DNA from: a virus
DNA length: 64,000 nt
IMG/VR virus record: IMGVR_UViG_3300020203_000013
Location: 38,269 to 102,268 of that record
Direction: 5' to 3' (one strand)
Shown here: one piece after another, positions 49,197 through 64,000 of the stretch
Position numbering within the stretch: the first letter of the stretch is position 1
Layout: each line of letters begins with the position of its first letter
Notes under the pieces: generated by a model
Told to the model about the DNA's origin: nothing
Database searches by the model: none
The model's input: the letters and a program-made list of their open reading frames with translations, nothing else
Program-made: the position numbers and the translations under genes

Positions 49197-49202
49197 ATTA
49201 TA
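49197..49202 (-). promoter_or_regulatory. Possible -10 box next to a start codon
   Basis: TATAAT on the minus strand ends 8 nt before the ATG of the C-methyltransferase gene and overlaps the stop of the array gene upstream. The -35 region is weak. It is a third case of a -10 box placed where the mRNA would have almost no leader. Confidence 0.35.
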
Positions 49203-49608
49203 CACTATCTTTGATAAAAGTTAAATACCAGTTTGTTTTATACTCTGATATTGAGTATGTTTTGGCAGGAGTCCTAACGTCTACTGAATAACCGTTGGCA
49301 TTTTCTAATTTAGGAAATAAAACTTTATATTTACTACTACTACTCTTCTTCTTGCTATCTTCGATTATGTTCTGTATTAACACTAACTTATCTCCGATAA
49401 CATTACTTACAACTACTAACCTACTAGTAAAGGAAGGGGTTCCATTAGGATTCCACTCGTTAATTACCAACGGTTCTATGAAAAAATCCATATCCGCTAC
49501 CGTCATCTGAGATTTATAAACTTTTAAATAGCTATTTAAATCTACACAAGACTTTAGTTGAGAGGATAGGTATATCTTCCTTAGAACTCCTTTACTAGAT
49601 TCTTCCAT
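49198..49608 (-). CDS. Array protein 1 (YxxxW family)
   Basis: A 136-aa member of the right-hand paralogous array, and its leftmost member on this side. It has GVLRKIYLSSQLKS at the N-terminus, a Lys/Ser run in the middle (KKKSSSSK) and SEYKTNWYLTFIKD at the end, giving the C-terminal Y-x3-W-Y signature. It lies between SSB and the methyltransferase, so the array reaches across the SSB gene. Function unknown. Confidence 0.75.
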   Translation of the reverse strand: MEESSKGVLRKIYLSSQLKSCVDLNSYLKVYKSQMTVADMDFFIEPLVINEWNPNGTPSFTSRLVVVSNVIGDKLVLIQNIIEDSKKKSSSSKYKVLFPKLENANGYSVDVRTPAKTYSISEYKTNWYLTFIKDSV

Positions 49609-49619
49609 TAATTGAAGTC

Positions 49620-50024
49620 TTAGGCTGGAGTTAAAGCTTCTTGTACGCTAGCTTCCTGACTATTATCTCTCGTGGACTCTGAGTTTTGGTCGCTTTTGTT
49701 TTTTGATAGAGCTTGAACTGTTGAAGCTTTAATTTCAAAAGCTTTAACCTTAGTACCATCTTTAAGATTGTACTCTCTAGCTTGAAGTTTTCCTTCTACC
49801 AGTACTTCTCTTCCTTTCTTAAGGTACTTAAGAGCAAATTCGGCATTACTACCAAAACATACTACATCAAACCACTCAGTTACTTTTTCTACTTTACCGT
49901 TGAAGTTGGTAGTTTCATGGGTAGCGATACTAAAGGCGGCGATTGAACTCTGCGCGTCTTCTTTAGAAATCTTTACTGGATCTTTTCCTAGATTACCAAC
50001 AATAATTACTTTATTAAAACTCAT
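49620..50024 (-). CDS. ssb: Single-stranded DNA-binding protein
   Basis: A 134-aa protein of the bacterial SSB type. It has MSFNKVIIVGNLGKDP, SIATHETTNFNGK with TEWFDVVCFG, and a KGREVLVEGKLQAREY core, then a disordered acidic-polar tail. ATG 50024 is chosen because AAGGAAAA precedes it, against an upstream in-frame start at 50051. It coats ssDNA during replication. The C-terminus ends in EALTPA and lacks the usual acidic DDIPF tip, so partner binding may differ from the host SSB. Confidence 0.93.
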   Translation of the reverse strand: MSFNKVIIVGNLGKDPVKISKEDAQSSIAAFSIATHETTNFNGKVEKVTEWFDVVCFGSNAEFALKYLKKGREVLVEGKLQAREYNLKDGTKVKAFEIKASTVQALSKNKSDQNSESTRDNSQEASVQEALTPA

Positions 50025-50081
50025 ATTATTTTTCCTTACTAAATTACACAAAATATTGTTACAGATCAGATCCTACAGTAT

Positions 50082-50411
50082 TTACTTTTGTGAGTCAAGA
50101 ACAGGGGACTTAAATAAAGAATATAAGATTTGATTACCTTGTATAGGTAATACTACAACCTTATCATAATTAATGTCGTGAATTTTAAAATGTAGGTCTC
50201 TACCTATAGAGCACAAGAATCTAATTTTTTTAACACCGTGAGGGGACTGTAGCTCTCTCACTGTAAGTTTGTCATTAAATTTAAGGTGTTGGATTTCTAA
50301 ATTATCCAGCTCCAGATTCTTAATAGACTTATAGTTAATTTTTAACCTTATTACCAAATGGAGGAGGTAATCTAGAGAACGCAACGCTATTGATGGTCTT
50401 TCGTACAACAT
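50082..50411 (-). CDS. Hypothetical protein upstream of SSB
   Basis: A 109-aa protein of Leu-rich, basic sequence (SLDYLLHLVIRLKINYKSIK; KKIRFLCSIGRDLHFKIHD). It does not show the array's C-terminal W signature, though size and place resemble members, so it may be a diverged one. A consensus promoter ends 7 nt before its ATG and no ribosome site is visible. Confidence 0.65.
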   Translation of the reverse strand: MLYERPSIALRSLDYLLHLVIRLKINYKSIKNLELDNLEIQHLKFNDKLTVRELQSPHGVKKIRFLCSIGRDLHFKIHDINYDKVVVLPIQGNQILYSLFKSPVLDSQK

Positions 50412-50418
50412 TTTATAT

Positions 50419-50446
50419 ATTATATATGATCTTTTAGATCTATCAA
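50419..50446 (-). promoter_or_regulatory. Consensus sigma70 promoter with palindromic spacer
   Basis: TTGATA, a 16-bp spacer and TATAAT end 7 nt before ATG 50411. The spacer holds GATCT-AAA-AGATC, a perfect inverted repeat that could be an operator. The mRNA start should fall on or next to the ATG, giving a leaderless message. It would drive the 109-aa gene and SSB. Confidence 0.65.
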
Positions 50447-50511
50447 CTAATGAGTTAACTAATTAATAGTTTAAAAAAGTTTAATAACCATCTAATATTA
50501 CTAAATCTCTT

Positions 50512-50987
50512 AAAGTGTTATAGTTTAGATTGGATAGAGGGCGAGTTCTTCCCTTTTTACAGGGAAAAATAGAAAAAGTTTGAGTTATCAATCAGTTTTT
50601 GCAAAATACAACCTTGGATTTTCATCTAGGTTCTCGACGGGGTTATCCTGTCGCCGTTTTATGTAAGATATTCACGGGTACAACTTTATTCCCTACCTTG
50701 CAGTCAGAGGGAGTTGACAGGAGTGGTTACCTGTTCCTTCGGCCTATGGAGTACTAACCTAAAGCACTCTGTAAATTAATCTTGCACTGTCTAAAGCAAC
50801 AAGAAATTAATCATTTTTATACAGCCAACCTTTGGCTGTGATCTTTCTTCCCCTCACCCTTTCAAAACCTGGAAACAGGCAAACAGGACTAGCTCTATAT
50901 TAGCAGGAAGAGTTATGGTCATGTCCTGATATTTAGATCAGAACATCTTAGGTCTGCCAGCAAGTTATCATTAAAGTATAACAGGAG
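50512..50987. other. Gene-free stretch with many hairpins; possible structured RNA
   Basis: No credible ORF lies in this 576-bp gap (50412-50987), which breaks an otherwise gapless region. Plus-strand hairpins include TTCCCT/AGGGAA (50549-50566), CGACGGG/CCTGTCG (50635-50653), ACAGG/CCTGT (50717-50734), ATTAATCTTG/CAAGAAATTAAT (50775-50811), ACAGCCAA/TTGGCTGT (50821-50839), CCTG-GAAA-CAGG with a GNRA loop (50868-50879) and a 9-bp stem (50922-50945). The GNRA loop favours the plus strand; one wobble favours the minus. Could be a large noncoding RNA or a replication origin. Confidence 0.45.
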
Positions 50988-51221
50988 TCAAGTGACTATC
51001 TCGTATGAGGACCAAGTTTTATTATATTCTGAGATCTTTAGTATTAAAAGTTCGTCCCCAGTTCCACTTAAAAGTTCTATAACATCAGTATTAAAGTTAA
51101 TAAAGTCAGAAGTAAAAGAGTCAGATAAATCAGAAAGGTCTAAATCAGGATCTCCTTTATTTATAATAATAAAAGGATGGCCCTTAATTATAAAGTCTGG
51201 AAGGGTTTTATTTTTCAACAT
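50988..51221 (-). CDS. Array protein 2, short (YxxxW end only)
   Basis: A 77-aa protein lacking the N-terminal LLxKLY helix of the array family but ending LLILKISEYNKTWSSYEI, the Y-x3-W signature. Its start lies inside the end of the next gene upstream (14-bp overlap), so it is probably translated by coupling. It borders the hairpin-rich gap. It may be a truncated member. Confidence 0.65.
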   Translation of the reverse strand: MLKNKTLPDFIIKGHPFIIINKGDPDLDLSDLSDSFTSDFINFNTDVIELLSGTGDELLILKISEYNKTWSSYEIVT

Positions 51222-51489
51222 ACCATGTTAATCCATAAGTAGTTAAGACTTCGTGGTGGACTATATCGGACCTTACCCCAGTAAAGCCGTTCATTAGCTC
51301 TCCTGTCTTCTGGTGTCCAATGAATATTAAAGTTACAACTCCCCCTTTTAACTCGACAAAAGAGACTTTAAAAGGCCCCCCAAAGTCTTTCGTATAAACG
51401 TTTACAAAATCCCTAGGAGGTATATTTAAAAGCTCCTTCTTACTTTTTCCAAGACTCTGAGCTATTACTTTGAAAAAAATGGCGCTCAT
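51208..51489 (-). CDS. Array protein 3 (YxxxW family)
   Basis: A 93-aa member. A helical start (MSAIFFKVIAQSLGKSKKEL) is followed by a beta-rich middle (FKVSFVELKGGVVTLIFIGH) and the signature TTYGLTWYVEK at the very end. It fits the family pattern at minimal length: helix, strands, final YGxTW strand. It has a 22-bp gap from the GP-repeat gene. Confidence 0.75.
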   Translation of the reverse strand: MSAIFFKVIAQSLGKSKKELLNIPPRDFVNVYTKDFGGPFKVSFVELKGGVVTLIFIGHQKTGELMNGFTGVRSDIVHHEVLTTYGLTWYVEK

Positions 51490-51511
51490 ACTAAGGGACG
51501 AAACTAAGTTA

Positions 51512-52243
51512 TTAAATTTGTTTAACTAAATCCCCAAACAAATCCGGCGCATCTTCTAAGTTTGTATCTAAAGAAGCACAAGTTAAGAGGGTATTAGAGA
51601 CTAAAATGGTATTAGAACTGAATGAGCCACCAGAAGTTCCTCTCTCAGCCAAATCCCCGCTAGGTATTTTTATTGTCTGACTACCCCAAGAGTTCGTCTG
51701 AGTGGCAGTCCCGATTTTAGGCCCAAAAGGATTAGTTGGGTAAGAAGGTCCAGGGTATGTACCAGGGCCTATAACGCCAGGGTATATGTTAGGTATTCCA
51801 GGGCCTATAACACCAGGGTGTACACCGCCAGGGTATATGTTAGGTATTCCAGGACCAAAAGGACCCTTACTGATCTTTTTTATAATGTCTTGCATCTCTT
51901 CGTCGGTTAACCCAACGATAGCTTTATGTACTTTGGTTATGTTTTCACTAGTCCTGGTAACTGAGATATTGGCTTCGCATATAACCCAGCTAACTTTATA
52001 CTCCAAAGAACTTAAAGATTCTACGTTCTTTCCATCATGAATTTTAATAACCTTTCTAACTGGATTAAGTTCTTCTACTATAGACCGAACCTTAATATCT
52101 ACAATTTGGACATTTTTTTTATCGTCCTGTAAGGCCAAAAGATAGAACCTATTAACTGAGATGTCGTCAAAAGGAATAGCCTTGCTCTTTAAGAACCCCC
52201 AATGGATAGATTTTAACATGCCAGGAACGTCAGGAATTTTCAT
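51512..52243 (-). CDS. Array protein 4 with GP-rich repeat extension
   Basis: A 243-aa protein. Residues 1-100 have the array layout and the signature LSSLEYKVSWVICEANI. A charged helix follows, then a Gly/Pro-rich stretch with repeats of GPGIPNIYPG and PGVIGPG (about residues 128-175), and a low-complexity Ser/Asn tail. The repeat resembles elastin or collagen-like spacers. It is the longest member and could be surface exposed or assembled in multimers. Confidence 0.7.
   Translation of the reverse strand: MKIPDVPGMLKSIHWGFLKSKAIPFDDISVNRFYLLALQDDKKNVQIVDIKVRSIVEELNPVRKVIKIHDGKNVESLSSLEYKVSWVICEANISVTRTSENITKVHKAIVGLTDEEMQDIIKKISKGPFGPGIPNIYPGGVHPGVIGPGIPNIYPGVIGPGTYPGPSYPTNPFGPKIGTATQTNSWGSQTIKIPSGDLAERGTSGGSFSSNTILVSNTLLTCASLDTNLEDAPDLFGDLVKQI
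51768..51853 (-). repeat. Direct repeats coding GP-rich segment
   Basis: A 22-bp sequence beginning GGTATATGTTAGG occurs at 51781-51802 and 51832-51853, a 51-bp period (17 codons), with shorter copies (CAGGGCCTATAAC) between. It encodes the GPGIPNIYPG motif. Tandem slippage would change repeat number without shifting the frame. Confidence 0.8.
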
Positions 52244-52250
52244 ATTTTTT

Positions 52251-52598
52251 CTAAATTAACACTTTTATAAGTCCGTACTTAATACCATAATCTACTATCG
52301 GAATGACAAAGTAAGGACAATCAGTTGAAGAATCTGATAATATTATTGCTTTATCAGTGATAGAGTGAATATATAGTTTTTTATTTAATCTCCTAAAAGA
52401 GACCACATCGTCCTGCTTCTTTAATAGATGGACCTTAAACTCTATAGTGCTATCTTCTTTATACTCTCGAAGAGAACTCAATGGCTCTAAGTGCCTCAGT
52501 GACAGTTTGATAGTGAGTTGGTGGAGCCTATCAGCTACAGAGATTCTTTTAGCTTTTGCCGCCTCTGAAAGGGCTGCACTTATATCTGTGTCCTTCAT
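52251..52598 (-). CDS. Array protein 5, diverged
   Basis: A 115-aa protein with a helical N-terminus (ISAALSEAAKAKRISVADRL) and a strand-rich end, VDYGIKYGLIKVLI, where Tyr replaces Trp in the YG-x2-W signature. It overlaps the upstream stop by ATGA. Family membership is probable by position, size and partial motif. Confidence 0.65.
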   Translation of the reverse strand: MKDTDISAALSEAAKAKRISVADRLHQLTIKLSLRHLEPLSSLREYKEDSTIEFKVHLLKKQDDVVSFRRLNKKLYIHSITDKAIILSDSSTDCPYFVIPIVDYGIKYGLIKVLI

Positions 52599-52999
52599 AC
52601 TAAAACCCCTGCTAAGTAAAAATAGCCAATCTCATACCTATCTCTATCGAAGTAGTTCTCAATATTGAAAGTTTTTATAACTTCAGTTCCTCTTTTTAAA
52701 ACAAACAACTGGAATTTGCTATTATACCCTATTCCATCTATAAAGCATATATCGATTAAAGCATTGTTAGGTTTTTTACTAACCAATAAGTAACGTTTAA
52801 ACCTAGAGGTGTAGTAGTCATCAACCAGGTAATCATAAGAATCCCCATAAGTATCCCACAAAAAAGGCGACATCTGAGTACTGTTCGACGGCAAAAAAGG
52901 CAAATCAATTAAGGAGTTAGTGAAAAAAACTAAATCTTCTTTTAATATTTGGGTACTAAAGGACAGAATTATTTTTGTAAGCTGTCTTTTATCGTGCAT
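52595..52999 (-). CDS. Array protein 6, diverged
   Basis: A 134-aa protein. The N-terminal helix LTKIILSFSTQILKED resembles the family helix, and the end DRDRYEIGYFYLAGVLV is a Y-x3-[YF] variant of the signature. It overlaps the metallopeptidase-like gene by 11 bp at its start and the next gene by ATGA. Function unknown. Confidence 0.65.
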   Translation of the reverse strand: MHDKRQLTKIILSFSTQILKEDLVFFTNSLIDLPFLPSNSTQMSPFLWDTYGDSYDYLVDDYYTSRFKRYLLVSKKPNNALIDICFIDGIGYNSKFQLFVLKRGTEVIKTFNIENYFDRDRYEIGYFYLAGVLV

Positions 53000-53384
53000 T
53001 TTTCTTTTTAATCCTCTTTATAGCTCTATCTAAGTGCTCGTCTACATTAGGTTTTGCTGACTGAGTTAGTAACCAATTTATCAACTTAGGGTTATTTTTT
53101 ATGATATAAAACAATCCTATGGAGATGTCGGTTACTAACCGCTCTTCTGTCCTATTGTTGATGTTTATATCATAGTTATAAAATATACTGTGAAGTAATT
53201 CGTGAAGAATAGTTTCTTCCATGTCTCCAGGTTTAAGATTTTTAGTATAAGAGATGATTTGCTTTTCGGATCTTTCAAACATACCTGCTGCTCTATTTTT
53301 AGATCCCCAATATGAGGACCTCTGTTCTATAAGAACAGGGTCGAAATCTGGATGAACCTTAACGGTCTTAGGAAGCTTTGCCAT
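52989..53384 (-). CDS. HELLH metallopeptidase-like protein inside the array
   Basis: A 131-aa protein not of the array family. METILHELLHSIFYNYDINI near residue 58 holds an HExxH zinc site, and an acidic RTEERLVTDISIG follows about 20 residues later, where a third ligand (Glu) is expected. The size and layout resemble small phage SprT/WLM-like zinc peptidases. The basic end (RAIKRIKKKNAR) could bind nucleic acid. It overlaps array genes on both sides, so it moves or is expressed with them. Confidence 0.7.
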   Translation of the reverse strand: MAKLPKTVKVHPDFDPVLIEQRSSYWGSKNRAAGMFERSEKQIISYTKNLKPGDMEETILHELLHSIFYNYDININNRTEERLVTDISIGLFYIIKNNPKLINWLLTQSAKPNVDEHLDRAIKRIKKKNAR

Positions 53385-53775
53385 TTATCCTATGCCCTCT
53401 CCCAATACATAACAACCAAGTTGAATTATAAAAGAGTAAATCTTCTAAGGTATACTTCTCCTCAAGATTTTTAAGTGGGGACTTAAACAAGATTAACCCT
53501 TTGTCAATTCCAAGACTCATATTACTATAGCTTGAATACCTGCCTACCTTATAAATCGCGAAAGCTTTCCCGTTCACATCCAGTCTAATGTAAAACAAGT
53601 TTTCAGGTAATCTAGGTAAAGAGCCTATAAAGGGGATTCCCGTCTCGTAAACGCATCGAGTAACCTTGTATACTGGGCCGAACTTTTTCTCATAGAAATT
53701 CATTAGGTCTTCTACATCAGAACGTGGAAGAACTCTATACATTGATTTTATCAGACTAGAACTAAGCTTAACCAC
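53368..53775 (-). CDS. Array protein 7 (YxxxW family)
   Basis: A 135-aa member. N-terminus LSSSLIKSMYRVLPRSDVED fits the helix pattern; LLFYNSTWLLCIGRG carries the Y-x3-W signature, followed by a 12-residue basic tail. The start overlaps the upstream gene by 8 bp, its end overlaps the peptidase gene start by 17 bp. Confidence 0.75.
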   Translation of the reverse strand: MVKLSSSLIKSMYRVLPRSDVEDLMNFYEKKFGPVYKVTRCVYETGIPFIGSLPRLPENLFYIRLDVNGKAFAIYKVGRYSSYSNMSLGIDKGLILFKSPLKNLEEKYTLEDLLFYNSTWLLCIGRGHRINGKAS

Positions 53776-54097
53776 CTTTAACCCACCAAGTTCTTTTATA
53801 ATCTTCTATTGAAAAAGACATTAGTTGTCCCAAGTTTTTTACATCAAGGTCTCTTACCGTAACTGTTTTTTCTTGAATCAATTCAACTACTTTAACCATT
53901 TTAAATTCTAGTTTACCTTCATTTTTAAAGAGTAAGTGAACTGGAACTTTAGCTTTTATCTTTTTGCCTGACCACCTAATTAAGTAGTCAGAGGTAACAG
54001 AGAGGACTTTAAAGTAAACATCAAAACTATCAGCCTTATTAGCCTTAATTCTTCTATCTGCTTCTATCTTTGCCCAATTATGTTTATACGGTTGCAT
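53768..54097 (-). CDS. Array protein 8 (YxxxWW)
   Basis: A 109-aa basic member. The N-terminus is a helix without the LLxKLY core (HNWAKIEADRRIKANKADSF); beta strands follow, and it ends SFSIEDYKRTWWVKGG, a full Y-x3-WW signature. It has its own 31-bp gap upstream. Confidence 0.75.
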   Translation of the reverse strand: MQPYKHNWAKIEADRRIKANKADSFDVYFKVLSVTSDYLIRWSGKKIKAKVPVHLLFKNEGKLEFKMVKVVELIQEKTVTVRDLDVKNLGQLMSFSIEDYKRTWWVKGG

Positions 54098-54128: not shown

Positions 54129-54545
54129 CTATTTAATAAATAAAAAAGACCCACCCACTCCTGTGCCAAGTTCCCCAGAAGACTTCAGAGTAACCTCAAA
54201 GTTAAAAGAAAAAGATGACTGAGGGCAAGGATGAATGAGGGTAAACCTAATTATAGAGTTGTCTTTTCCTAATAACCTAATTAAGTGGACTGGAGCATCT
54301 CCAGATAGTTTTAAAACCTTACCAGTTGGGTAATGATAGTACCTTAAATTACTCATTTTATCATTAGATAGGGTAATAGATCCACTAGAACCAATACTTT
54401 TGAGGTGCCTCCTAACCTCCTCAGCACTACTATCATCTGAAACTTTAAGACCTTTATAGTAAAAGGAAAAGGGTGCAAGGTCATCTAAGTGCCTGACCCG
54501 ATTATAATAACTAAACCTTTTGTTGAGTTTCTTTAAAAGATCCAT
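54129..54545 (-). CDS. Array protein 9, diverged
   Basis: A 138-aa protein with the N-terminal helix MDLLKKLNKRFSYYNRV of the array type. It lacks a clear Trp at the end (VTLKSSGELGTGVGGSFLFI), so the C-terminal strand is altered. Placed in line between typical members; likely a diverged member. Confidence 0.65.
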   Translation of the reverse strand: MDLLKKLNKRFSYYNRVRHLDDLAPFSFYYKGLKVSDDSSAEEVRRHLKSIGSSGSITLSNDKMSNLRYYHYPTGKVLKLSGDAPVHLIRLLGKDNSIIRFTLIHPCPQSSFSFNFEVTLKSSGELGTGVGGSFLFIK

Positions 54546-54558
54546 ATAAATACTATCG

Positions 54559-54993
54559 TCAGGTTAATTCAGAATCTTTAATTTTATTTGCTGAAACTAA
54601 AGACCACGAAACACAAAGCTGCGTAGTCTCAAGCATTAAGGTTTTTTTGCGCGACCAAGGTGTTAACTTTAATAACGACTCTTCGTCTAACTGAATAGCA
54701 ATCCAATTGGGACCTATATAGGGATATGCCACCCCCTTCAATAGCTTAAATCCGTCGAAAAAACCATGAAAGTGTACATCATGTACACACATTGCGGTGT
54801 CATTCTCAGACATTTTTACTCTAGTGTGGTTAGCAATAAAAACCTCTACCTCCATAAATCTTAAGGCGTAAGTATCTGCTATCATATTACGCCCTACGGG
54901 CGGAGTTAGATCCGTTAACGGACTATGCCTCAGTAAGTTCTTATCTAAAAACCGCTTAGTTAATCTATTGGTAAAATTGAAAATACTACTCAA
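54559..54993 (-). CDS. Array protein 10 (CVSW variant)
   Basis: A 144-aa protein with FTNRLTKRFLDKNLLRHSPL at the N-terminus and TTQLCVSWSLVSANK near the end, where the Tyr of the signature is Leu but the Trp remains. A His-rich middle (CVHDVHFHGFF) is unusual in the family. Overlaps the next gene upstream by 8 bp. Confidence 0.7.
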   Translation of the reverse strand: MSSIFNFTNRLTKRFLDKNLLRHSPLTDLTPPVGRNMIADTYALRFMEVEVFIANHTRVKMSENDTAMCVHDVHFHGFFDGFKLLKGVAYPYIGPNWIAIQLDEESLLKLTPWSRKKTLMLETTQLCVSWSLVSANKIKDSELT

Positions 54994-55666
54994 TACCTAC
55001 TCCAAGAACAAAGCCTCTACCACTTTTAATACCCTTAAACTCCCTTCCCCCGTCTTGCTTTACTATTCCTTCTTCGGTGCGATTAAGGTCTTCAGGAAAG
55101 AAGGGGTTCTCAATAAAAATACCCTGATTCTCTCCAGATAGGTGAGCATCAGGGTCTGAAGAAGGACTAACGGTGAGCGCATCTGTAACGTCCTCGTAAG
55201 AGGACGGGTAGGAGAAGGTTCCAATACCTATTATAGCCCAAGTTATATTATAATCATCGCGACAGAGACAAAAACTTGAGTAATTCCGTCCACTAGCAAA
55301 AGGCCTATAAAACGTAATAAGCTGTGGAATAGAACTAGACCTATCACTCCCTTGTTCACAGGATTCTTGTCTAGCTAGAACAACTCCCTTAAAGGGATCT
55401 TCTCTTTGACTATAGCTTCGACAATCTGCGGCTGAATTCTCATGATCCATAATCCCCCAAGGACCTAAAACTATCATTTTATAAAATATACGACCGAATT
55501 GATAGTCTGGGTAATTTCTTTGAGTATACCCTAAAGCAAGTTTTAGAGGCGGGGCAAGTGTAACTAACCGACTAGCACCCTCTAGAAACTTTCTCTGTTG
55601 ATCATCTTTTAATTTTTTTTCTATATTGATAGTAAATTTATTTAAAAGTTCTCTGTTAGATTTCAT
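54986..55666 (-). CDS. Array protein 11 with C-terminal extension
   Basis: A 226-aa member. The N-terminus SNRELLNKFTINIEKKLKDD is typical; the signature CRDDYNITWAIIGIGTF comes near residue 150, followed by about 65 extra residues, acidic then Gly-rich (EFKGIKSGRGFVLGVG). It has 4-bp overlap with the upstream gene. Confidence 0.75.
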   Translation of the reverse strand: MKSNRELLNKFTINIEKKLKDDQQRKFLEGASRLVTLAPPLKLALGYTQRNYPDYQFGRIFYKMIVLGPWGIMDHENSAADCRSYSQREDPFKGVVLARQESCEQGSDRSSSIPQLITFYRPFASGRNYSSFCLCRDDYNITWAIIGIGTFSYPSSYEDVTDALTVSPSSDPDAHLSGENQGIFIENPFFPEDLNRTEEGIVKQDGGREFKGIKSGRGFVLGVGIE

Positions 55667-56097
55667 TTAATCTCCCAAGCAGTCTTATAATTTTTAAGAT
55701 CTAATTTTATATAATAACCCCACCAAGTTTTGCCTACTTTATTCCCGAATAGGGTATACTTTCCCAAAAGAGTGTCTTCAGTTATTGAGTCTAAGTAAAA
55801 AGTATTCCATCGTGGGGAGTAGTTAAGATGGCCATAGACGGTAGAGCCTGAAAACATTCTACCAATTGCAGGGCTCTTTATCTCGACATTATCATAGGTA
55901 AATATAAGGATTGCCGTGTTCAATGTAATATACCGCCAGCGACCGTATTCTTCTAGTTTATACTCTAAGTTTGCAATAACATCGTCTCTAGGCATTTCAC
56001 TTTCGTAACTTAATAAACTTTCAAAAGATCTTTTAATCTCGTAATTCCTAGCTTTCTTAGCCAAAATAGTTAATATATTTTTAGATGTTTGAAGCAT
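55663..56097 (-). CDS. Array protein 12 (YxxxW family)
   Basis: A 144-aa member with SKNILTILAKKARNYEIKRS at the N-terminus, beta strands (YVNIEI-like patterns), a KVGKTWWGYYIKLD segment and the final LDLKNYKTAWEIK signature. Ends ATGA-overlapping with the next gene. Confidence 0.75.
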   Translation of the reverse strand: MLQTSKNILTILAKKARNYEIKRSFESLLSYESEMPRDDVIANLEYKLEEYGRWRYITLNTAILIFTYDNVEIKSPAIGRMFSGSTVYGHLNYSPRWNTFYLDSITEDTLLGKYTLFGNKVGKTWWGYYIKLDLKNYKTAWEIK

Positions 56098-56100
56098 AGA

Positions 56101-56490: not shown

Positions 56491-56492
56491 AT

Positions 56493-57026: not shown

Positions 57027-57568
57027 TTCTGTATCTCTAATATGACCACATCTTGTGGGTCTATGAAATCACCATAGTCTTCCTCTTTAGTTGACTGTTT
57101 AATTTCATTTATAAACCATAGCGTGTTATAGGTATTTTCATTATAAATTTTATCTAAATTTATTGCGTTTAGACAGTTAAGATCCTTAGTATCATGAAAG
57201 CATTGGATGGGATTTATCTGCATCTTCAGGTCCGTATGATGCTGATTAATATTCGACCAATAAGACATCCATACAGATATATTATCTATTGAAACTACTC
57301 TAGACTTCGTATTTAACTGATACGGGCAGAGAAAGCTTTCGTCTATTTTTCCAACTAAGTATCGCCTAAAGAGTTCTGTATCCCATATAAAGGTAACCTT
57401 AGCTCTGTAGAAATCCCCAAATCCCATACCAGAACCTCCGCCCTCTTCTTCATCTCGGTCTCTTAAAAAGTTAAATATTGCGGTAGGGGACTTGCGGTCC
57501 CCTATTAAGGTTTTTAATTGTCTATTTTTTAACTTAAGCCAGAACTCACCTATGGAATTAATCGACAT
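57023..57568 (-). CDS. Array protein 15, long (YxxxWF)
   Basis: A 181-aa member with a variant N-terminus (GEFWLKLKNRQLKTLIGDRK), a Gly/Glu run (EEGGGSGMGFGDF) and NENTYNTLWFINEIKQS about 30 residues before the end. Its C-terminal acidic tail (KEEDYGDFIDPQDV) is unusual. It overlaps both neighbours. Confidence 0.75.
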   Translation of the reverse strand: MSINSIGEFWLKLKNRQLKTLIGDRKSPTAIFNFLRDRDEEEGGGSGMGFGDFYRAKVTFIWDTELFRRYLVGKIDESFLCPYQLNTKSRVVSIDNISVWMSYWSNINQHHTDLKMQINPIQCFHDTKDLNCLNAINLDKIYNENTYNTLWFINEIKQSTKEEDYGDFIDPQDVVILEIQK

Positions 57569-57938
57569 ATTCCAAGCCCTTTAAGTAAGTATGGTCTATG
57601 CCGTGTAAGTAAGTTTCCTGCGTTAAATATAATCCGAAGTTATCCTTAAAATTAAGGGTCGGATGAATACAAATACTTATATAAAAGACCGTCTCCGGTC
57701 CCGATCTGTTAAAGTATCTAAAAAATCCAATTATATCTTCTCCACTAAAGTTAATAGTAACTTGGATTTTTTCTAAGTGCTGTCCAAGGTTAGGCATACT
57801 CTTACTATCCGTAAAATCTACTAAATCGTTTAAGGCTTTTTGATAGTCGTAAGAAAGCTCTAGGTTTATAAGTTCAACCTTATTAATAATCATCCTACGC
57901 AAATTATCGTTATATATCTTACTTAATAAATTCTTCAT
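57558..57938 (-). CDS. Array protein 16, diverged
   Basis: A 126-aa member with the classic start MKNLLSKIYNDNLRRMI, but no final Trp (DNFGLYLTQETYLHGIDHTY). A recombined or eroded C-terminal end is likely. It overlaps the upstream gene start by 11 bp. Confidence 0.72.
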   Translation of the reverse strand: MKNLLSKIYNDNLRRMIINKVELINLELSYDYQKALNDLVDFTDSKSMPNLGQHLEKIQVTINFSGEDIIGFFRYFNRSGPETVFYISICIHPTLNFKDNFGLYLTQETYLHGIDHTYLKGLEYVD

Positions 57939-57958
57939 ACAATAAGTCTGTCGGCATA

Positions 57959-58360
57959 TTAGGGTAAATTCTTTAGTAAATTTTCATCGTACTTGAGAAT
58001 GCTCCATTGGTCCCCGTAAGTACTTATGCGGGCCCTATACCTCCTAGGCCGTACCTTTCCTGGCCGTACCTCCTTAGGATGAAAATTTAAATATGCAGCA
58101 CCTACCGATTCATCACTTACCGACGATAGCTCTCCTTCAAGAAAGTGGCACCTACAGGGCTCGGTTCTCCAGGGTACACGTTTAATCTTTAGTAGGACAT
58201 TTATTCTAGCAGAAGGAACAGATTTTAAGTAGCTTATTATACCCTCAAGCCCTTCAACAGGTAAAGGTTTAAAGGCACCATCCATCATCTTTTCAAGCAG
58301 TCTAGCTGATATTGACACTAGTAACCTCCAGAACTTCCCAACTTTTACCATACCCTTCAA
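57959..58360 (-). CDS. Array protein 17 (YGxxW)
   Basis: A 133-aa basic member ending RISTYGDQWSILKYDENLLK. The helix SARLLEKMMDGAFKPLPVEG stands at the N-terminus. The start is uncertain: TTG 58360, or ATG 58351 (MVKVGKFW), which follows GAAGGGT. The start lies inside the 32-codon remnant ORF 58302-58400 in another frame. Confidence 0.7.
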   Translation of the reverse strand: MKGMVKVGKFWRLLVSISARLLEKMMDGAFKPLPVEGLEGIISYLKSVPSARINVLLKIKRVPWRTEPCRCHFLEGELSSVSDESVGAAYLNFHPKEVRPGKVRPRRYRARISTYGDQWSILKYDENLLKNLP

Positions 58361-58400
58361 GCAAGACTATATCTGATAGTTTTTTCAATAGGTAACTCAT
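58302..58400 (-). pseudogene. Deleted array member, 32-codon remnant
   Basis: An ORF starting ATG 58400, overlapping the upstream stop as ATGA, like real members. It encodes MSYLLKKLSDIVLLEGYGKS, followed by WEVLEVTSVNIS: the family N-terminal helix joined straight to a YGKSW end, like the YGKVW end of its neighbours. The middle beta region is missing, as after an internal deletion. It could still make a micro-protein. It overlaps the start of the next gene in a different frame. Confidence 0.5.
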
Positions 58401-58717
58401 TTTAGCGCCGCCCAAACTTTACCATAATCTTTAGTATTAAAAACAAAAGTACTTATATGTACTCCTTTCTCATTAATATACTTCTCTACTGGGACTGCAT
58501 AAATACTGGTCCCGTCCGTTAAGAAGATAGATATGTTAGATAGAAATATCCTAGACTCTTCAAGGTTAACCATTTTAAGTTGAGGGCTTACATCGCTAGT
58601 ACTGGCGTTAAGCCATATATCTACTACCCTACAAAATGAGTAGACATCATGAGCTTTCTCGGTGTTTACCAGATGGAGGAGGCTTTTCCTATAGAATTTG
58701 TTTAATAGATAATTCAT
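58397..58717 (-). CDS. Array protein 18, recent twin of protein 20
   Basis: A 106-aa member. Its first 35 residues (MNYLLNKFYRKSLLHLVNTE, then KAHDVYSFCRVVDIW) are identical to those of the protein at 59064-59393. The end FNTKDYGKVWAALK is also nearly identical, while the middle differs. It is a fresh duplicate with rapid change in the central strands. Overlaps the upstream gene by 4 bp. Confidence 0.85.
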   Translation of the reverse strand: MNYLLNKFYRKSLLHLVNTEKAHDVYSFCRVVDIWLNASTSDVSPQLKMVNLEESRIFLSNISIFLTDGTSIYAVPVEKYINEKGVHISTFVFNTKDYGKVWAALK

Positions 58718-58720
58718 TTT
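58613..58720 (-). repeat. Duplicate copy of 59289-59396
   Basis: About 108 bp of near-identical sequence (one visible mismatch) matches 59289-59396, offset 676 bp. A second match of about 65 bp joins 58401 onward with 59068 onward, offset 667 bp. Together they mark a segmental duplication of one array gene plus its neighbour. Confidence 0.85.
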
Positions 58721-59067
58721 TTAAGTACCCACCATGACGTTGTGTACGAAGACTCTTCAAAAAAAAGAGGCTGGCCTTCCTCGTAGTAAAGCACGTGAAA
58801 CCTAAAGTAGACACGATCTCTGTACAACCTGTTGGCAGTACATTGGCTAATAAGGGTACCAGTCGTTTTTACCAAAATCCCATCTTCCATTCTTTGTATT
58901 ATAGTTACATTCCGTAAATAGCCATAATCATTAAACGAACTATAATAAAATGCTTTTTTTACTCTATGTAAATCCTCTATCATTTTTCGGTCAGTGATCT
59001 CTCTTTCTAATCCTTTCTGATTTAAAGCAGTTAATCCTTTAGTTAATCCTTCAGTTATGTAACTCAT
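58714..59067 (-). CDS. Array protein 19 (YxxxWW)
   Basis: A 117-aa member. ATG 59067 is chosen because it overlaps the upstream stop as ATGA, matching its neighbours; an in-frame start at 59082 is less likely. N-terminus MSYITEGLTKGLTALNQKG, end FEESSYTTSWWVLKK. It lies between the twin genes 18 and 20. Confidence 0.8.
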   Translation of the reverse strand: MSYITEGLTKGLTALNQKGLEREITDRKMIEDLHRVKKAFYYSSFNDYGYLRNVTIIQRMEDGILVKTTGTLISQCTANRLYRDRVYFRFHVLYYEEGQPLFFEESSYTTSWWVLKK

Positions 59068-59393
59068 TTTAGCGCCGCCCAAACTTTACCATAATCTTTA
59101 GTATTTAAAACAAAACAACTTATATGTACTCCTTGCGTATCAATATACTTCTCTACTGTGCCTGCATAAAAACGGGTCCCGTCCGTTAAATCAATAGATA
59201 TGTTAGATAGAAATACCCGACCCTCGGCAAGATGAACAATTTTAAGTTGGATATAGGTAAATTTGTAGTCCCCACCGTCACCTTTATACCATATATCTAC
59301 TACCCTACAAAATGAGTAGACATCATGAGCTTTCTCGGTGTTTACCAGATGGAGGAGGCTTTTCCTATAGAATTTGTTTAATAAATAATTCAT
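59064..59393 (-). CDS. Array protein 20, recent twin of protein 18
   Basis: A 109-aa member: start MNYLLNKFYRKSLLHLVNTE and end LNTKDYGKVWAALK, almost the same as protein 18, with a different middle (WYKGDGGDYKFTYIQLKIVH against WLNASTSDVSPQLKMVN). The ends of these twins are conserved and the middle is replaced, which suggests the ends carry the constant function. Confidence 0.85.
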   Translation of the reverse strand: MNYLLNKFYRKSLLHLVNTEKAHDVYSFCRVVDIWYKGDGGDYKFTYIQLKIVHLAEGRVFLSNISIDLTDGTRFYAGTVEKYIDTQGVHISCFVLNTKDYGKVWAALK

Positions 59394-59394
59394 T

Positions 59395-59787
59395 TTAGTG
59401 TATTTTTATAATATCCCATCCTATTCCTAGATCAGATATTCTTAATTTAACTCTATGTAAGTTAGGACTAGTTGGGCAGTATACGTCTGTTATCCATAAA
59501 TGGTCCCCAAACACTGCCACGTCCCCAAAAAACTCATCCGTGTTACGAGAATGCAAGGTAAAATCCCTATATACGTAAAATAAATTACTATTACTACTAT
59601 CTCTATACTCTACTATGCTCATTTTAATCAGTCTGTCAGTTAAAAATCTTCTGTAAAGTCCATACGGCATAATAGCCTTATCCTTAGACCTAAGACCTAT
59701 TAGATTTTTTATTTCGCTTGAAGTATACCCTTTAAATAGATCAACCAGTCTCCAGGTAAATACTTTCTCTAGTAGTCTATTCTTCAT
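59395..59787 (-). CDS. Array protein 21 (LGxGW)
   Basis: A 130-aa member. MKNRLLEKVFTWRLVDLFKG at the start, then strands, ending RISDLGIGWDIIKIH, the L-G-x-G-W form of the signature. It overlaps the upstream gene by 11 bp. Confidence 0.8.
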   Translation of the reverse strand: MKNRLLEKVFTWRLVDLFKGYTSSEIKNLIGLRSKDKAIMPYGLYRRFLTDRLIKMSIVEYRDSSNSNLFYVYRDFTLHSRNTDEFFGDVAVFGDHLWITDVYCPTSPNLHRVKLRISDLGIGWDIIKIH

Positions 59788-60148
59788 CTTCTAAAATTAC
59801 CCACCACTGCTCTTTATAAGTTCTTTCGGAATACTCTTTACTCTCTTGCTTTCCCCCACCAGATTCCTTGCCTACAAAAGAGTAATACCTGTACGTAAAT
59901 CCTATTAATAAGTCTTCATAGTTATCTTTTAAAGACCCCTTTAATATTCTATACGGCCTCTCTTTACTTCTAGTTTTATTGACTAAAGTAACTTTAATTG
60001 GCAACTTACTTTCTAATCTTCTATCAATATCATTTAAACTAGCTACTCTAGACCTCTCCCCTGATATTAAATCCAGAATAGACTCCTGATAGGAATCCTG
60101 CACCCTCTTTAAGTGATTAGTATATAGCCGGTTCAGTAATAAGTTCAT
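59777..60148 (-). CDS. Array protein 22 (YxxxWW)
   Basis: A 123-aa member. MNLLLNRLYTNHLKRVQDSY starts it and SERTYKEQWWVILEDEE ends it. A KVTLVNKTRSKERPYRILKG segment shows the usual strand middle. ATGA-type overlap with the next upstream gene. Confidence 0.82.
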   Translation of the reverse strand: MNLLLNRLYTNHLKRVQDSYQESILDLISGERSRVASLNDIDRRLESKLPIKVTLVNKTRSKERPYRILKGSLKDNYEDLLIGFTYRYYSFVGKESGGGKQESKEYSERTYKEQWWVILEDEE

Positions 60149-60462
60149 TTAATCTCCGTAAAGTCAGTTATCCACCAGTCTACCCCGTATGTATGCTCAT
60201 CAAACCTTAAACCACACTTACTACCTAACATTAGAGAATCTTCTAACACATACTCGTTCCCTATTGGATCAAATATAAGTTTACCCTTACGTAATATTCC
60301 AACTCGGAAATAACTCTTATCCAGAATAGTAGCTTGACAATTTATACCTTGACTTAAATATGACTTTCTAATCATAATTATAGGCACAACTATAGGTAAG
60401 ACATTAATCTTAGTTTCTCCTAAACACTTGAGGTACAATTTTAATAGTAGTGATGAGTTCAT
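60145..60462 (-). CDS. Array protein 23 (YGxxWW)
   Basis: A 105-aa member, close to the minimal family size. Starts NSSLLLKLYLKCLGETKINV and ends FDEHTYGVDWWITDFTEIK. Overlaps by 4 bp on both sides. Confidence 0.82.
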   Translation of the reverse strand: MNSSLLLKLYLKCLGETKINVLPIVVPIIMIRKSYLSQGINCQATILDKSYFRVGILRKGKLIFDPIGNEYVLEDSLMLGSKCGLRFDEHTYGVDWWITDFTEIK

Positions 60463-60836
60463 TTATCTAGGTGAACCTTAAAAATAAAAACCGTTTTACC
60501 TATCTGATCTAACTCAAATCCTACATAATTTAAGTCCGTACTAGTATTATAAAAATAAGCCCCACCTGGGCCAGAGTTTATGGCAAATTCCACAGCGTCA
60601 ACAACAGCTAAACGAGCTACTTCTATAGGGAGTTCCCATAGACCAAAGATTGAATCTCCGCCAGTCTGAAATCGAATTGGAATATGAACAAAGGAGAGAG
60701 TAATCTTTCCATCCACCATCAAAGACCTTATCGAGTCTTCATCAAACCCCAAAGCGTAAGTACTCATAACCCTTTTTATTTCGGAGTATGTTAAAGATTT
60801 TATATATTGCAAAAAAACTTTATTTAAGAGGGTCAT
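60459..60836 (-). CDS. Array protein 24 (IGKTVF)
   Basis: A 125-aa member starting MTLLNKVFLQYIKSLTYSEI. ATG 60836 overlaps the upstream stop as ATGA, so it is chosen over an in-frame ATG at 60899 inside that gene. The end LDQIGKTVFIFKVHLDK keeps the strand but replaces Trp with Val-Phe. Confidence 0.78.
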   Translation of the reverse strand: MTLLNKVFLQYIKSLTYSEIKRVMSTYALGFDEDSIRSLMVDGKITLSFVHIPIRFQTGGDSIFGLWELPIEVARLAVVDAVEFAINSGPGGAYFYNTSTDLNYVGFELDQIGKTVFIFKVHLDK

Positions 60837-61318
60837 ATATTTCCCGCCGTTCCCGTTGTTGGCGCTGTTGTTAAAGGGTCCCATCCTGAGAGAAGCCACG
60901 CTCCAGACTCAACTAAACTCAAAATTTCTGCCAGAGTTAAAATTAGATAGTATCGAAAGCCATCTCCATTCAGGCTATAAAAAGTTATATTGTATTCTAT
61001 TTCCTCTAAAGGTTTAGTTAACTCCGCAAAAACTCCTCCTACCTTAATTTTTACAGTGTTAATATATACGTACCCCTCAGTATACGCAACGGCAAAAGGG
61101 ATTTGACTAACTGGAGGGGGTACCCAATCTCCTGTTTTAAGCATAAAAGTTATAGCATTGGAATTTAGTATCTTCTTCCTAACAAAATAGCTTTTTAATC
61201 CAAACTTCCTCTGAGCCTGTAAGCTTATCTGCTGTAGCCGTGTTGGGCGAAGGGGTATTAGTTTATAAGTCATACGGATACTATCGGCAGGGGCCTTCCA
61301 AACCTTGAGCCTTTTCAA
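60833..61318 (-). CDS. Unrelated array-embedded protein, TTG start
   Basis: A 161-aa protein without the array signatures. It begins MKRLKVWKAPADSIRMTYKL with TTG as start codon, supported by AGGAGG 8 nt upstream. It has mixed basic and hydrophobic sequence (YLILTLAEILSLVESGAWLL) and a Thr/Gly-rich end. The ribosome site lies in the loop of a hairpin (61321-61347), which may control its translation. Not recognised. Confidence 0.65.
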   Translation of the reverse strand: MKRLKVWKAPADSIRMTYKLIPLRPTRLQQISLQAQRKFGLKSYFVRKKILNSNAITFMLKTGDWVPPPVSQIPFAVAYTEGYVYINTVKIKVGGVFAELTKPLEEIEYNITFYSLNGDGFRYYLILTLAEILSLVESGAWLLSGWDPLTTAPTTGTAGNI

Positions 61319-61320
61319 CC

Positions 61321-61347
61321 GAGTGCCCTCCTAAAAACCCCGCACTC
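61321..61347 (-). promoter_or_regulatory. Hairpin placing the ribosome site in its loop
   Basis: GAGTGC and GCACTC pair across a 15-nt loop (minus strand) that holds AGGAGG, 2 nt before the TTG-start gene begins. The loop exposes or hides the site depending on ligand, RNA partner or coupling. Upstream (about 61350-61365) is an A-run with CCCC that could pair with GGGG in the loop and compete. This is inferred from pairing only. Confidence 0.4.
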
Positions 61348-61476
61348 AACCGATTTTTTTTGGGGCTCCCTCTAATAGTTTAACTATGGGTTAGTAGTCA
61401 ATTATATCTTGTAATATCAAGTAGTTAGAGTACTTATACCCATTCATAATTTTATAATTAAGCATATAATCAATAG

Positions 61477-61848
61477 TTAATTAAACTTATGTTCCGATAA
61501 TCTAGATAAAACCCATTCAGCACCATAACTTTCTCTTCTGTATATACCCATCGTACCTAAAACCCCGCCTACTAAACATATTGATTGCCACTGACCTACT
61601 TTAAAAAATCCAGAGGGCATATTACCTATTATAAATTTACCTATTATATTTTCAGGGGGGAGTGTTTGCCTGGAACGTGCTACAATTACGTCCAGCTTTA
61701 TGCCATATTCACCGTAATACTGATAGTCTAAATACCTATCTAATTCTTGTAGAGTATATGCATAAACTTCTTTCCCACAGAACTTTGTAGGAAGATAATC
61801 CTTTAATACATGCTTATCATATAACTTATCTAATAGCTTATTTCTCAT
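61477..61848 (-). CDS. Array protein 25 (YGxxW)
   Basis: A 123-aa member. MRNKLLDKLYDKHVLKDYLP is the clearest LLxKLY start; the end RRESYGAEWVLSRLSEHKFN holds YGxxW. A 158-bp gap follows before the next gene. Overlaps the next upstream gene by 4 bp. Confidence 0.82.
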   Translation of the reverse strand: MRNKLLDKLYDKHVLKDYLPTKFCGKEVYAYTLQELDRYLDYQYYGEYGIKLDVIVARSRQTLPPENIIGKFIIGNMPSGFFKVGQWQSICLVGGVLGTMGIYRRESYGAEWVLSRLSEHKFN

Positions 61849-62258
61849 TTAAAATATAACGGCTCAGGCTTCTTAATAGTATCAATACTAAATTTCAATA
61901 TAAAAACAGTTCTACTTAAATTAAGGACACTAAAAGATTGCAAATCAGAATTATATATATCAGTTACAAAATAACGTCCACTATCTAGATGACCTAGATA
62001 AGTACCTCTACGTTCATATTCCACCTGGAAGGGTTGGTTTATCATTATATATTTAATTTTACCTTTTGGTTCAGTTAATACTACTACTGTTAATTTTATT
62101 TCTTTATAGGGGGATAAGTCTTTATCAAAGTAAAGCTTGTTCAGTGCTTCCCCATCTACACAAACTTGATTCCTATTCAAGAAAGAATGTAACTCTTTAG
62201 TCCCCAAATTTTTAAGGAAGTTAATATATACTTTTTCCATTGACATGGATTTATACAT
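61845..62258 (-). CDS. Array protein 26 (diverged end)
   Basis: A 137-aa member with MYKSMSMEKVYINFLKNLGT at the start, chosen because ATG 62258 overlaps the previous stop. The end VLNLSRTVFILKFSIDT has Phe in place of Trp, like protein 24. Several in-frame Met codons (62258, 62246) make the exact start uncertain. Confidence 0.75.
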   Translation of the reverse strand: MYKSMSMEKVYINFLKNLGTKELHSFLNRNQVCVDGEALNKLYFDKDLSPYKEIKLTVVVLTEPKGKIKYIMINQPFQVEYERRGTYLGHLDSGRYFVTDIYNSDLQSFSVLNLSRTVFILKFSIDTIKKPEPLYFK

Positions 62259-62640
62259 GGTGTATCTCAACTATAAACCAGGTATTACCTAAGTCGTCTA
62301 GCCTTAATCTGGTAGGTTTTTTAGTAAGACGATCAATCCTTTCTAGGTAATCAGGGTGATTAGGGCAATTATCACCATTACCACAAGCAGGACTTACTAA
62401 ATCCCAGGGTTCTTTATATACGAAGACCTGGGGATGAATACCCGACTCATGTACGTAAGCGGGAGAGGAGAGGGTTAAGTTAATTGGTCCAATATATTTA
62501 GTATACCCTTCTTTAGTTTTATAGAATGAGTTAATTATAGTTTCCCTTGTTATACCTTTAGCAAGGAATTCATCTTTTGCATCCTTATTAATACCTTCTA
62601 CAATCCTTATACACATTTTTTTTAAAATGGGGTTATGCAT
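62251..62640 (-). CDS. Array protein 27 (NTWF, Cys-containing)
   Basis: A 129-aa member. MHNPILKKMCIRIVEGINKD starts it; the end RLDDLGNTWFIVEIHHV holds the L-G-x-x-W signature. A CGNGDNCPNHPDYL insertion near residue 85 with two Cys and a His could bind metal, unlike other members. Confidence 0.82.
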   Translation of the reverse strand: MHNPILKKMCIRIVEGINKDAKDEFLAKGITRETIINSFYKTKEGYTKYIGPINLTLSSPAYVHESGIHPQVFVYKEPWDLVSPACGNGDNCPNHPDYLERIDRLTKKPTRLRLDDLGNTWFIVEIHHV

Positions 62641-62989
62641 CGTATACCTTAAGTATAAACCAAGTAAGATCCTGTTCCGATAGGGGAAACCTTTTACAAT
62701 CAGAAAACTCTCCCTGAGGAAGTCTTACTCGCAGATGACCTTCCTGTATAGTAAACTGTTGATTTATCAATAAGATAGGTCCCACAGCATCTGTAGGATA
62801 TTTTTTACCCTTAATAATAGTTAGGTTCCTAAACCCAGTTAGACCACCTAAGTAATCAAAAGTAAATAACTTTGTTAGTTCTAGTAAAGGTAGAATAATC
62901 CTATTCTTATTAATAAAAGCTAGAAAATCTGTATGATCCATCCCCTCTATACAAGATTTATATATATTATTTAATATATGGGTGTTCAT
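62633..62989 (-). CDS. Array protein 28 (LTWF)
   Basis: A 118-aa member: MNTHILNNIYKSCIEGMDHT at the start and PLSEQDLTWFILKVYDA at the end. AGGTTAAAG precedes its ATG. It is the first gene after a 147-bp AT-rich gap with a TA repeat, which may hold a promoter. Confidence 0.82.
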   Translation of the reverse strand: MNTHILNNIYKSCIEGMDHTDFLAFINKNRIILPLLELTKLFTFDYLGGLTGFRNLTIIKGKKYPTDAVGPILLINQQFTIQEGHLRVRLPQGEFSDCKRFPLSEQDLTWFILKVYDA

Positions 62990-63136
62990 GTCTTTAACCT
63001 ATAATTCATTAAGTAGTCTATCGACACTAAGTCTAAATAACTTTATATATATATATTTATTTCACTATGGGGTAGAACATATATTAAGTGCCCAAAATTA
63101 TTTCTGATTCTATTGGTATTAAATATAAGGGGTTTA

Positions 63137-63514
63137 TCACCAGTGCTTAGAAAAGTTTAATATCCAATAAGTCTTGTTAACATCTTCAATTAGAAATTGT
63201 GTCGCGATCCCCTTATTATGTTCGAAGCGGGAGATCACTGTAAAACTACCCTTCTCAAAACTGTTATTGCCATACAAGTGTGCAAAACCATAACCTAGTT
63301 TATAACACACTATTCCCTCTAAAGAGGTAGATATTGCTGCATAGGTAACAACTTGATAAGAATCAAAACGTAATTCAGTCTTGAATATACTAAATAATTG
63401 CTCAGAGTCTAAGGGTTTACTAGAATTCTTACAAAGACTTTTAATACCATCGGAGTCTAGTCCATGTAAAAACTTCCAATAAAGCCTCTTTAATAGTTCT
63501 TTATTCATGGACAT
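63137..63514 (-). CDS. Array protein 29 (YW)
   Basis: A 125-aa member beginning MSMNKELLKRLYWKFLHGLD and ending IEDVNKTYWILNFSKHW. The first 20 codons match the start of its right neighbours (MSMNKELL), so they share a recent origin. Overlaps by 14 bp. Confidence 0.85.
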   Translation of the reverse strand: MSMNKELLKRLYWKFLHGLDSDGIKSLCKNSSKPLDSEQLFSIFKTELRFDSYQVVTYAAISTSLEGIVCYKLGYGFAHLYGNNSFEKGSFTVISRFEHNKGIATQFLIEDVNKTYWILNFSKHW

Positions 63515-63920
63515 TTAGTATCCACCAGTGAATGTTCAAATCACCAACTAGCAGTTCGTTCATTTGAACGTGAGGTATGTAGTCCTTCTCCCAATAACGA
63601 AGTTGTTGCGCCTTCTTCCCCCAATAACGAAGTTGTTGCCCCTTACCCGTGATGTGTATCTCTTGGTCTAGATAAAGATGGTAGTTAAGGTCATCCCAGT
63701 TCCAACATACAAATGTAGCCTTGAAAGACGTGAAGTGCGGGTTATGTATTGCTTTTTTTCGTACTGTCTCTAAAAATGCCTTCATTTTCTCAGGCCTTGA
63801 AGACTTCTTATAGCAATCAATATGATTCTCCAACTTTAGATATATGCTATCTCCCTTTTTATAAAGATCCGTCAGCGTTCTAAAGTATATTTTATCTAAT
63901 AGTTCTTTATTCATGGACAT
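63501..63920 (-). CDS. Array protein 30 with 10-residue tandem repeat
   Basis: A 139-aa member. MSMNKELLDKIYFRTLTDLY starts it and GDLNIHWWILNVHE ends it. Residues near 100-118 contain a duplicated 10-residue unit (QQLRYWGKKA then QQLRYWEKDY). Its end is almost the same as that of the next, partial, gene to the right, so the two are recent duplicates. Confidence 0.85.
   Translation of the reverse strand: MSMNKELLDKIYFRTLTDLYKKGDSIYLKLENHIDCYKKSSRPEKMKAFLETVRKKAIHNPHFTSFKATFVCWNWDDLNYHLYLDQEIHITGKGQQLRYWGKKAQQLRYWEKDYIPHVQMNELLVGDLNIHWWILNVHE
63591..63642 (-). repeat. 30-bp tandem duplication in coding sequence
   Basis: The 19-bp run beginning CCAATAACGAAGTTGTTGC appears at 63591-63609 and 63621-63639, a 30-bp period that keeps the reading frame. 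The first copy has a few differences at its edges. It suggests recent slippage inside an array gene. Confidence 0.85.
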
Positions 63921-64000
63921 TTAGTATCCACCAGTCAATGTTCAAACCAGAAACTGACAGGTCGTTCATTGGAGCGTGAGGCATGTCCTTATCCCAATAA
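63907..64000 (-). CDS. Partial array protein 31, cut by window edge
   Basis: Only the C-terminal 31 residues are inside the window. They read YWDKD then PHAPMNDLSVSGLNIDWWI and LNVHE, against YWEKD, PHVQMNELLVGDLNIHWWI, LNVHE of gene 30. The stop lies inside the start of gene 30, 14 bp overlap. The array therefore continues to the right. Confidence 0.75.
   Translation of the reverse strand, partial: YWDKDMPHAPMNDLSVSGLNIDWWILNVHE

Follow-up and report, generated by a model that had tools for sequence, protein, structure and literature searches.

A tandem array of small, fast-diverging phage genes with constant ends and variable middles

Small-Gene Clusters in Phages

Clusters of small genes in phages are rich in host-inhibiting proteins, usually without a recognizable common signature. 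The host takeover module of SPO1 consists of 26 small early genes, several of which are individually aimed at host processes (PMC6873191). The internal proteins of the T-even phages are a payload aimed at host defence, and in T4 a short element targets proteins to the core of the head (PMC3012670). The Bacillus jumbo phage G (JN638751) carries about 28 tandem, co-oriented paralogs with a constant C terminus (gp444-gp474, 352560-371001, ending YWKENDRYLAKIL). The locus described here is a tandem array of short genes at the right end of the record of a large, uncultivated virus of bacteria, IMGVR_UViG_3300020203_000013 of IMG/VR. The analysed stretch of 64,000 nucleotides (the window) comprises bases 38269-102268 of this 102,268-bp record, and its phage is referred to as G000.

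The array resembles each of these systems in part. It shares with the SPO1 module a cluster of many small co-located genes, and for the window genes host targeting is a role that we infer. Its products, like the T-even internal proteins, are diverse small proteins with only a short constant element in common; in the window the clearest such element lies at the C terminus, or inside the protein in four members. The likeness to phage G extends to a distantly related capsid, since the capsid protein of G000 is a distant relative of phage G gp27 (27%). However, the phage G genes encode ordinary, BLAST-linked paralogs of about 200 residues with a CPIC...C zinc-ribbon-like core, and they end in DRYLAKIL rather than Yx3W. 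Neither mark of that family (CPIC...C core, DRYLxKIL end) occurs in the window array proteins. Phage G has additional loci at 26.1, 26.7, 27.1, 32.7, 100.0, and 311.4 kb, and shorter proteins with the same ending are encoded within a few kb of the gene for its capsid protein. In the window, the constant ends allow members to be recognized despite unrelated middles, and recent copies hint at how variants may arise.

Layout of the Array

The array contains 34 short open reading frames (ORFs; g01-g34 from left to right, median 130 residues), all on the minus strand of the right 14.8 kb (49198-63920). Neighbouring ORFs overlap at 19 of the 33 junctions, and 29 junctions fall within 35 nt. The original prediction, made from the DNA sequence alone, described about 30 abutting or overlapping genes with constant ends. 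The compact tandem arrangement stands, but the predicted set took in two genes that, judged by sequence, are not family members, the single-stranded DNA-binding protein (SSB) gene g02 and the HELLH peptidase-like gene g09, as well as about six genes in which neither terminal motif is convincing (g03, g07, g08, g12, g13, and g28). About 24-26 array genes carry at least one motif, and typical members are about 75-145 residues long.

Two further genes lie beyond the 34 ORFs. The start of g20 is probably the GTG at 58318, which exposes a previously missed gene of 32 residues. At the right edge, the C terminus of one more member (NDLSVSGLNIDWWILNVHE) is cut by the end of the contig, so the array extends past it. 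Co-transcription is probable from the arrangement. The best promoter-like site, TTGATA-16-TATAAT at 50446-50419 on the minus strand, sits inside a 576-nt gap (50412-50987) as a consensus match only, and such sites are no commoner in the array region than in shuffled sequence. An Rfam search returned no match, and no tRNA was found.

Constant Ends

Two short motifs set the array apart from the rest of the phage. A C-terminal motif, [YLI]x3Wx[ILV] within the final 25 residues, is present in 14 of 34 array genes and in none of the 84 other genes (Fisher 3e-9), with a mean of 0.6 in shuffled array proteins. An N-terminal motif, [LI][LI]x[KR]h[YFHW], is found in 10 of 34 versus 0 of 84 (shuffled mean 0.2). 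The C-terminal motif does not always close the protein as had been predicted: in g06, g14, g17, and g18 it is internal and followed by 31-157 residues, and there it therefore marks a domain end. In g06 (51512-52243) the tail after the Yx3W element is Gly/Pro/Tyr-rich and of low complexity, with a 51-nt tandem repeat at 51761-51862.

The C-terminal element is strong. A position matrix trained on 14 genes of two related phages, none of them from the window, gives array genes higher scores than the other genes (Mann-Whitney 5e-7) and in most of them locates the motif close to the C terminus. In leave-one-out tests with a C-terminal hidden Markov model (HMM), 11 of 23 motif bearers outscore every one of the 424 background or shuffled sequences, and another 7 rank behind no more than 4 of them; g10, g15, g21, g27, and g29 fail individually. 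The window HMM recovers genes of both related phages, introduced below as G002 (gene at 50832, E 2e-4) and G003 (24376, E 0.0013), while no background gene of G000 falls below E 13, and the seven Yx3W genes in the array of G002, which were not in the training set, are all recovered at E <1. Over ten phages, matches at E up to 1 comprise 23 of 136 genes in G000 (mostly the training set, by construction), 7 of 76 in G002, 11 of 369 in G003, and 16 of about 2,300 in phage G, RaK2, T4, CBB, phiKZ, and SPO1 together. Alignments built from the window only and from the relatives only meet on the motif in hhalign (E 0.0028), but with a probability of only 11%. A second hhalign comparison, A4 against A5, was not used as evidence because the two alignments have members in common.

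BLAST detects clear relatives within the array only in the pair g21/g23 and in the first 23 residues of g33 and g34. Profile comparison links motif-bearing genes, including those of two phages outside the training set, and at the level of sequence it is well supported that the motif-sharing genes form one family. The combination of constant ends and fast-changing middles is likewise borne out, recent copies being mosaic even in their DNA, and so is the absence of a named family with this pattern: searches of Pfam, PHROG, PADLOC, and PDB sequences gave no usable match for members, only scattered single-member matches near chance.

Constant Ends without a Motif

A motif-free scan provides a separate view. 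For groups of eight neighbouring genes on one strand, it sets the final 14 residues against segments from the interior and expresses the outcome as a score termed zC. The maximum is 7.3 in G000, 11.0 in G002, 15.3 in G003, and 26 in phage G. Elsewhere it reaches 6.1 in RaK2, 4.2 in CBB (first 220 kb scanned), 3.5 in T4, 2.5 in phiKZ, and 1.0 in a third relative, G004, whose contig stops in its glycan genes; SPO1 (3.8), unlike the window, has no constant-end array by this measure. The margin of G000 over RaK2 is only modest, and a stretch of G000 outside the array scores 5.0; the claim for G000 is therefore carried by the motif tests. The constant-ended stretches of G000, G002, and G003 are BLAST-linked in 1-5 of 28 gene pairs (1 of 28 in G000), compared with 28 of 28 in phage G. 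In RaK2 (JQ513383), small hydrophobic, probably membrane-protein genes at 218593-221036 have similar ends (EFRNKLPD, EFHNKLPD, and LRNKIPD).

Arrays in Related Phages

Searches with the terminase, portal, and capsid proteins converge on the same few IMG/VR contigs: G002 (3300015360_000059, 51 kb), G003 (IMGVR_UViG_3300037851_000542, 260 kb), and G004 (3300014913_000011, 72 kb). A further contig, G005, overlaps G003 at essentially 100% identity. IMG/VR searches with g34, g23, the neighbouring methyltransferase, and the SSB found no close relatives; a portal search of bacterial genomes and a tblastn search of phage records with two members were also without match.

Two relatives carry comparable arrays, a recurrence with differing ends that goes beyond the original prediction and is the most interesting part of the analysis. 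In G002 the order is that of the window, with glycan genes, SSB, and then an array running from 46587 to 51113, up to the contig end. Apart from the SSB, the arrays of G002 and the window have no clear BLAST orthologs, whereas for the other genes that have a homolog the median identity is 44%. The G002 array interleaves two types, seven Yx3W genes and seven genes with a helix-like end, [DP]R-x2-[IV][ILV]-x-Y[LI]; the seven small genes with this second ending are of very different character (L028:8400-10847).

G003 has a few Yx3W genes and a separate array at 224-8383 on the minus strand, comprising 31 tandem genes of 63-107 residues. It is like the window array in its tandem, small, overlapping genes, constant ends, variable middles, and aromatic terminal strand. 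It differs in its N-terminal element (KYL[LVA]), its shorter proteins, and an end fixed at I/V-COOH. The ends, among them DIFYFI, KLWYLI, and SIHILI, follow a loose aromatic-aliphatic pattern closing in I/V-COOH in 27 of 31 genes versus 2 of 276 elsewhere (Fisher 3e-32); the pattern was composed after viewing the genes, and the motif-free scan picks out the same stretch. The array is one family, 17 of its 31 members being recovered over their whole length in leave-one-out tests, with an apparent order, assigned by eye, of strand, strand, helix, strand, strand. A profile link between this family and that of the window, suspected from the similar end, was not found by hhalign. Further copies of constant-ended genes lie at 24-36 kb and 249-258 kb of the G003 contig.

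The contigs of G000 and G002 stop inside their arrays, and 224 bases separate the start of the G003 array from a contig end. Arrays that differ between strains and disrupt assembly would be expected to have this effect. A broader reading is that constant-ended cassettes serve this jumbo-phage lineage in general as a means of diversification, with a set of terminal elements particular to each phage: the Yx3W strand, the aromatic-aliphatic I/V-COOH strand, or the [DP]R-x2-[IV][ILV]-x-YL helix. The ends would then act both as a protein scaffold or docking end and as a DNA recombination handle, generating and reshuffling dozens of different binding surfaces against host proteins. As a general statement about the lineage this is quite unlikely.

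Mosaic Copies

Recent copies in G000 are mosaic. In g21 and g23, the first 34 codons differ by 1 synonymous and 0 nonsynonymous changes and the last 13 codons by none, whereas the middle 59 codons have diverged at nonsynonymous (dN 0.31) and synonymous (dS 0.30) sites alike. The synonymous contrast between ends and middle is significant (Fisher p 0.018). The ends are thus alike at synonymous sites too, so selection at the protein level alone is insufficient; the pattern would follow if the ends had undergone gene conversion or the middle had been replaced. A 90-nt segment that takes in the end of one gene and the beginning of its neighbour is present both at the contig end and at the g34/g33 junction (89% identity), whereas the bodies of g33 and g34 are unrelated. 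DNA around junctions is in general more alike than gene middles. The 32-residue gene, an N-terminal motif joined directly to a C-terminal one, is perhaps a recombination product between ends, or could be due to chance.

Function and Alternative Explanations

The favoured reading, held tentatively and at a little under an even chance as a whole, is a reshuffled tandem family of small, intracellular, host-protein-binding proteins. The locus would be a co-oriented array, probably transcribed together and grown by tandem duplication, of a single family that diverges very fast, in which an N-terminal helix (LLxKhY, in many members) and a closing hydrophobic strand ([YL]x3W-h-[ILV]) frame a variable, beta-rich middle. 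Near-identical ends would allow homologous recombination to duplicate, delete, and exchange middles, as in g21/g23, g33/g34 and the next gene, and perhaps the 32-residue gene. The products would most likely be intracellular and bind host proteins for takeover or counter-defence, with the changing middle as the target-binding part; a host- or defence-directed function is a reasoned guess. If it is correct, a single phage offers about 25 candidate inhibitors, maybe on a common scaffold.

Other roles fit less well. A surface role, one of several that had been proposed, is the least likely, because only 3 of 34 array proteins have a transmembrane-like stretch. DNA mimicry is unlikely, since 22 of 34 have an isoelectric point above 8.5. 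An outer-membrane beta-signal, raised by the aromatic C terminus, was set aside because no signal-peptide pattern is apparent by eye.

Several points weigh against the favoured reading. The middles of most members cannot be aligned. The predicted N-terminal motif has clear leave-one-out support in only about six genes (g21, g23, g25, g29, g33, and g34), all in the right half of the array. The mosaic DNA evidence rests on two or three recent pairs; no such repeats were found in the G002 array DNA and only weak ones in that of G003, so recent shuffling is shown only in G000. In the middle of g21/g23, dN/dS is near 1, which could also reflect relaxed constraint instead of diversifying selection. 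Pfam, PHROG, and PADLOC searches brought up no known takeover or counter-defence protein that resembles any member. The common fold is hypothetical: AlphaFold models of two members have mean confidence scores (pLDDT) of 46 and 51 and no PDB match. Both low-confidence models place N-terminal helices before strands, and the last strand of g32 is the motif. A small beta-barrel of the SH3-like kind is a candidate fold, suggested by a strand-turn-strand pattern. A Foldseek search with the g32 model gave chance matches only and was not used as evidence.

The constant C-terminal element might instead be a tag or docking end rather than a domain-closing strand. There is precedent in the T-even internal proteins, described as diverse defence proteins with only a capsid-targeting sequence in common (PMC3012670), and both relatives lend it some support, G003 through chains that stop at the same I/V and G002 through a second constant ending on seven very different bodies. 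Yet Yx3W is followed by further residues in four members, which speaks for a strand that closes a domain and against a C-terminal tag. In addition, members of the G003 family are recognized along their full length and not by the end alone, the Yx3W element has the pattern of a hydrophobic strand, and no G000 gene outside the array scores well for it. A tag is rather unlikely.

Alternatively, the array could encode internal, ejected, or decorating proteins of the virion, whose variability would stem from their being first to meet the host. The prevalence of high isoelectric points would suit packing with DNA, and the short same-ending proteins of phage G are encoded near its capsid gene. This explanation is improbable: the phage G array belongs to a different family, and the window array lies beyond the glycan genes and SSB, away from the structural block. 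Neutral expansion, in which weakly constrained duplicates are kept by chance and ends are conserved as overlapping start and stop signals, would account for the divergence of the g21/g23 middle and the start/stop overlap at most junctions, but is highly improbable given about 30 undisrupted open frames maintained across 14.8 kb, ends conserved as protein across phages and not merely as junction DNA, and comparable arrays retained in three phages.

Features of the Array and Neighbouring Genes

Table 1. Features of the array region (window coordinates)
Feature	Position	Strand	Description
g01	49198..49608	-	Member left of SSB, end ISEYKTNWYLTFIKDSV; leave-one-out HMM E 0.067, beaten by no null sequence
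g02	49620..50051	-	SSB, PF00436 E 7e-26; G002 homolog at 45756-46247
Gap, 576 nt	50412..50987		Holds the best promoter-like site
g04-g06	50988..52243	-	Members; g04 YNKTW, g05 YGLTWYV, g06 YKVSWVI with a Gly/Pro-rich tail of 157 residues after it
g07-g09	52251..53384	-	Without convincing motif
g09	52989..53384	-	HELLH peptidase-like motif; no match in Pfam search
g10, g11	53368..54097	-	Members; g11 (SIEDYKRTWWVKGG) scores best, leave-one-out E 1.7e-5
g12-g18	54129..57568	-	Mixed; Yx3W then tails in g14, g17, g18; g15 ends YKTAWEIK
g19, g20	57558..58318	-	g19 has N-terminal motif; g20 start revised, probably GTG
32-residue gene	58302..58400	-	N-terminal motif (MSYLLKKL) fused directly to C-terminal motif (YGKSWEVL)
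g21	58397..58717	-	Near-copy of g23, 75% identity
g22	58714..59082	-	Between near-copies g21 and g23; end SSYTTSWWVLKK; leave-one-out HMM E 0.0036
g23	59064..59393	-	Near-copy of g21
g24-g27	59395..60899	-	Typical members, N-terminal LLxKhY and C-terminal motif
g28	60833..61318	-	Without convincing motif
g29-g32	61477..62989	-	Typical members; junction sequence common to g30 and g31
g33, g34	63137..63920	-	Same N terminus, unrelated bodies
Partial member	63907..63984	-	C terminus; 90 nt with 89% match to g34/g33 junction

The array adjoins a glycan cluster (39932-49188) that encodes a C-methyltransferase, a PglD-like transferase, and WavE-like, glycosyltransferase-like, and RpiB-like proteins; the relatives have comparable clusters. 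The terminase large subunit ORFs of the relatives (L003:9965-12568, L004:10001-12517, and L005:8726-11683) contain a big, intein-like in-frame insertion after SRG[FY]GK, which the window terminase (19453-21276) lacks. At the other end of the window, positions 1003-2742 hold a large homing-endonuclease-like gene (phrog_3339, E 2e-115).

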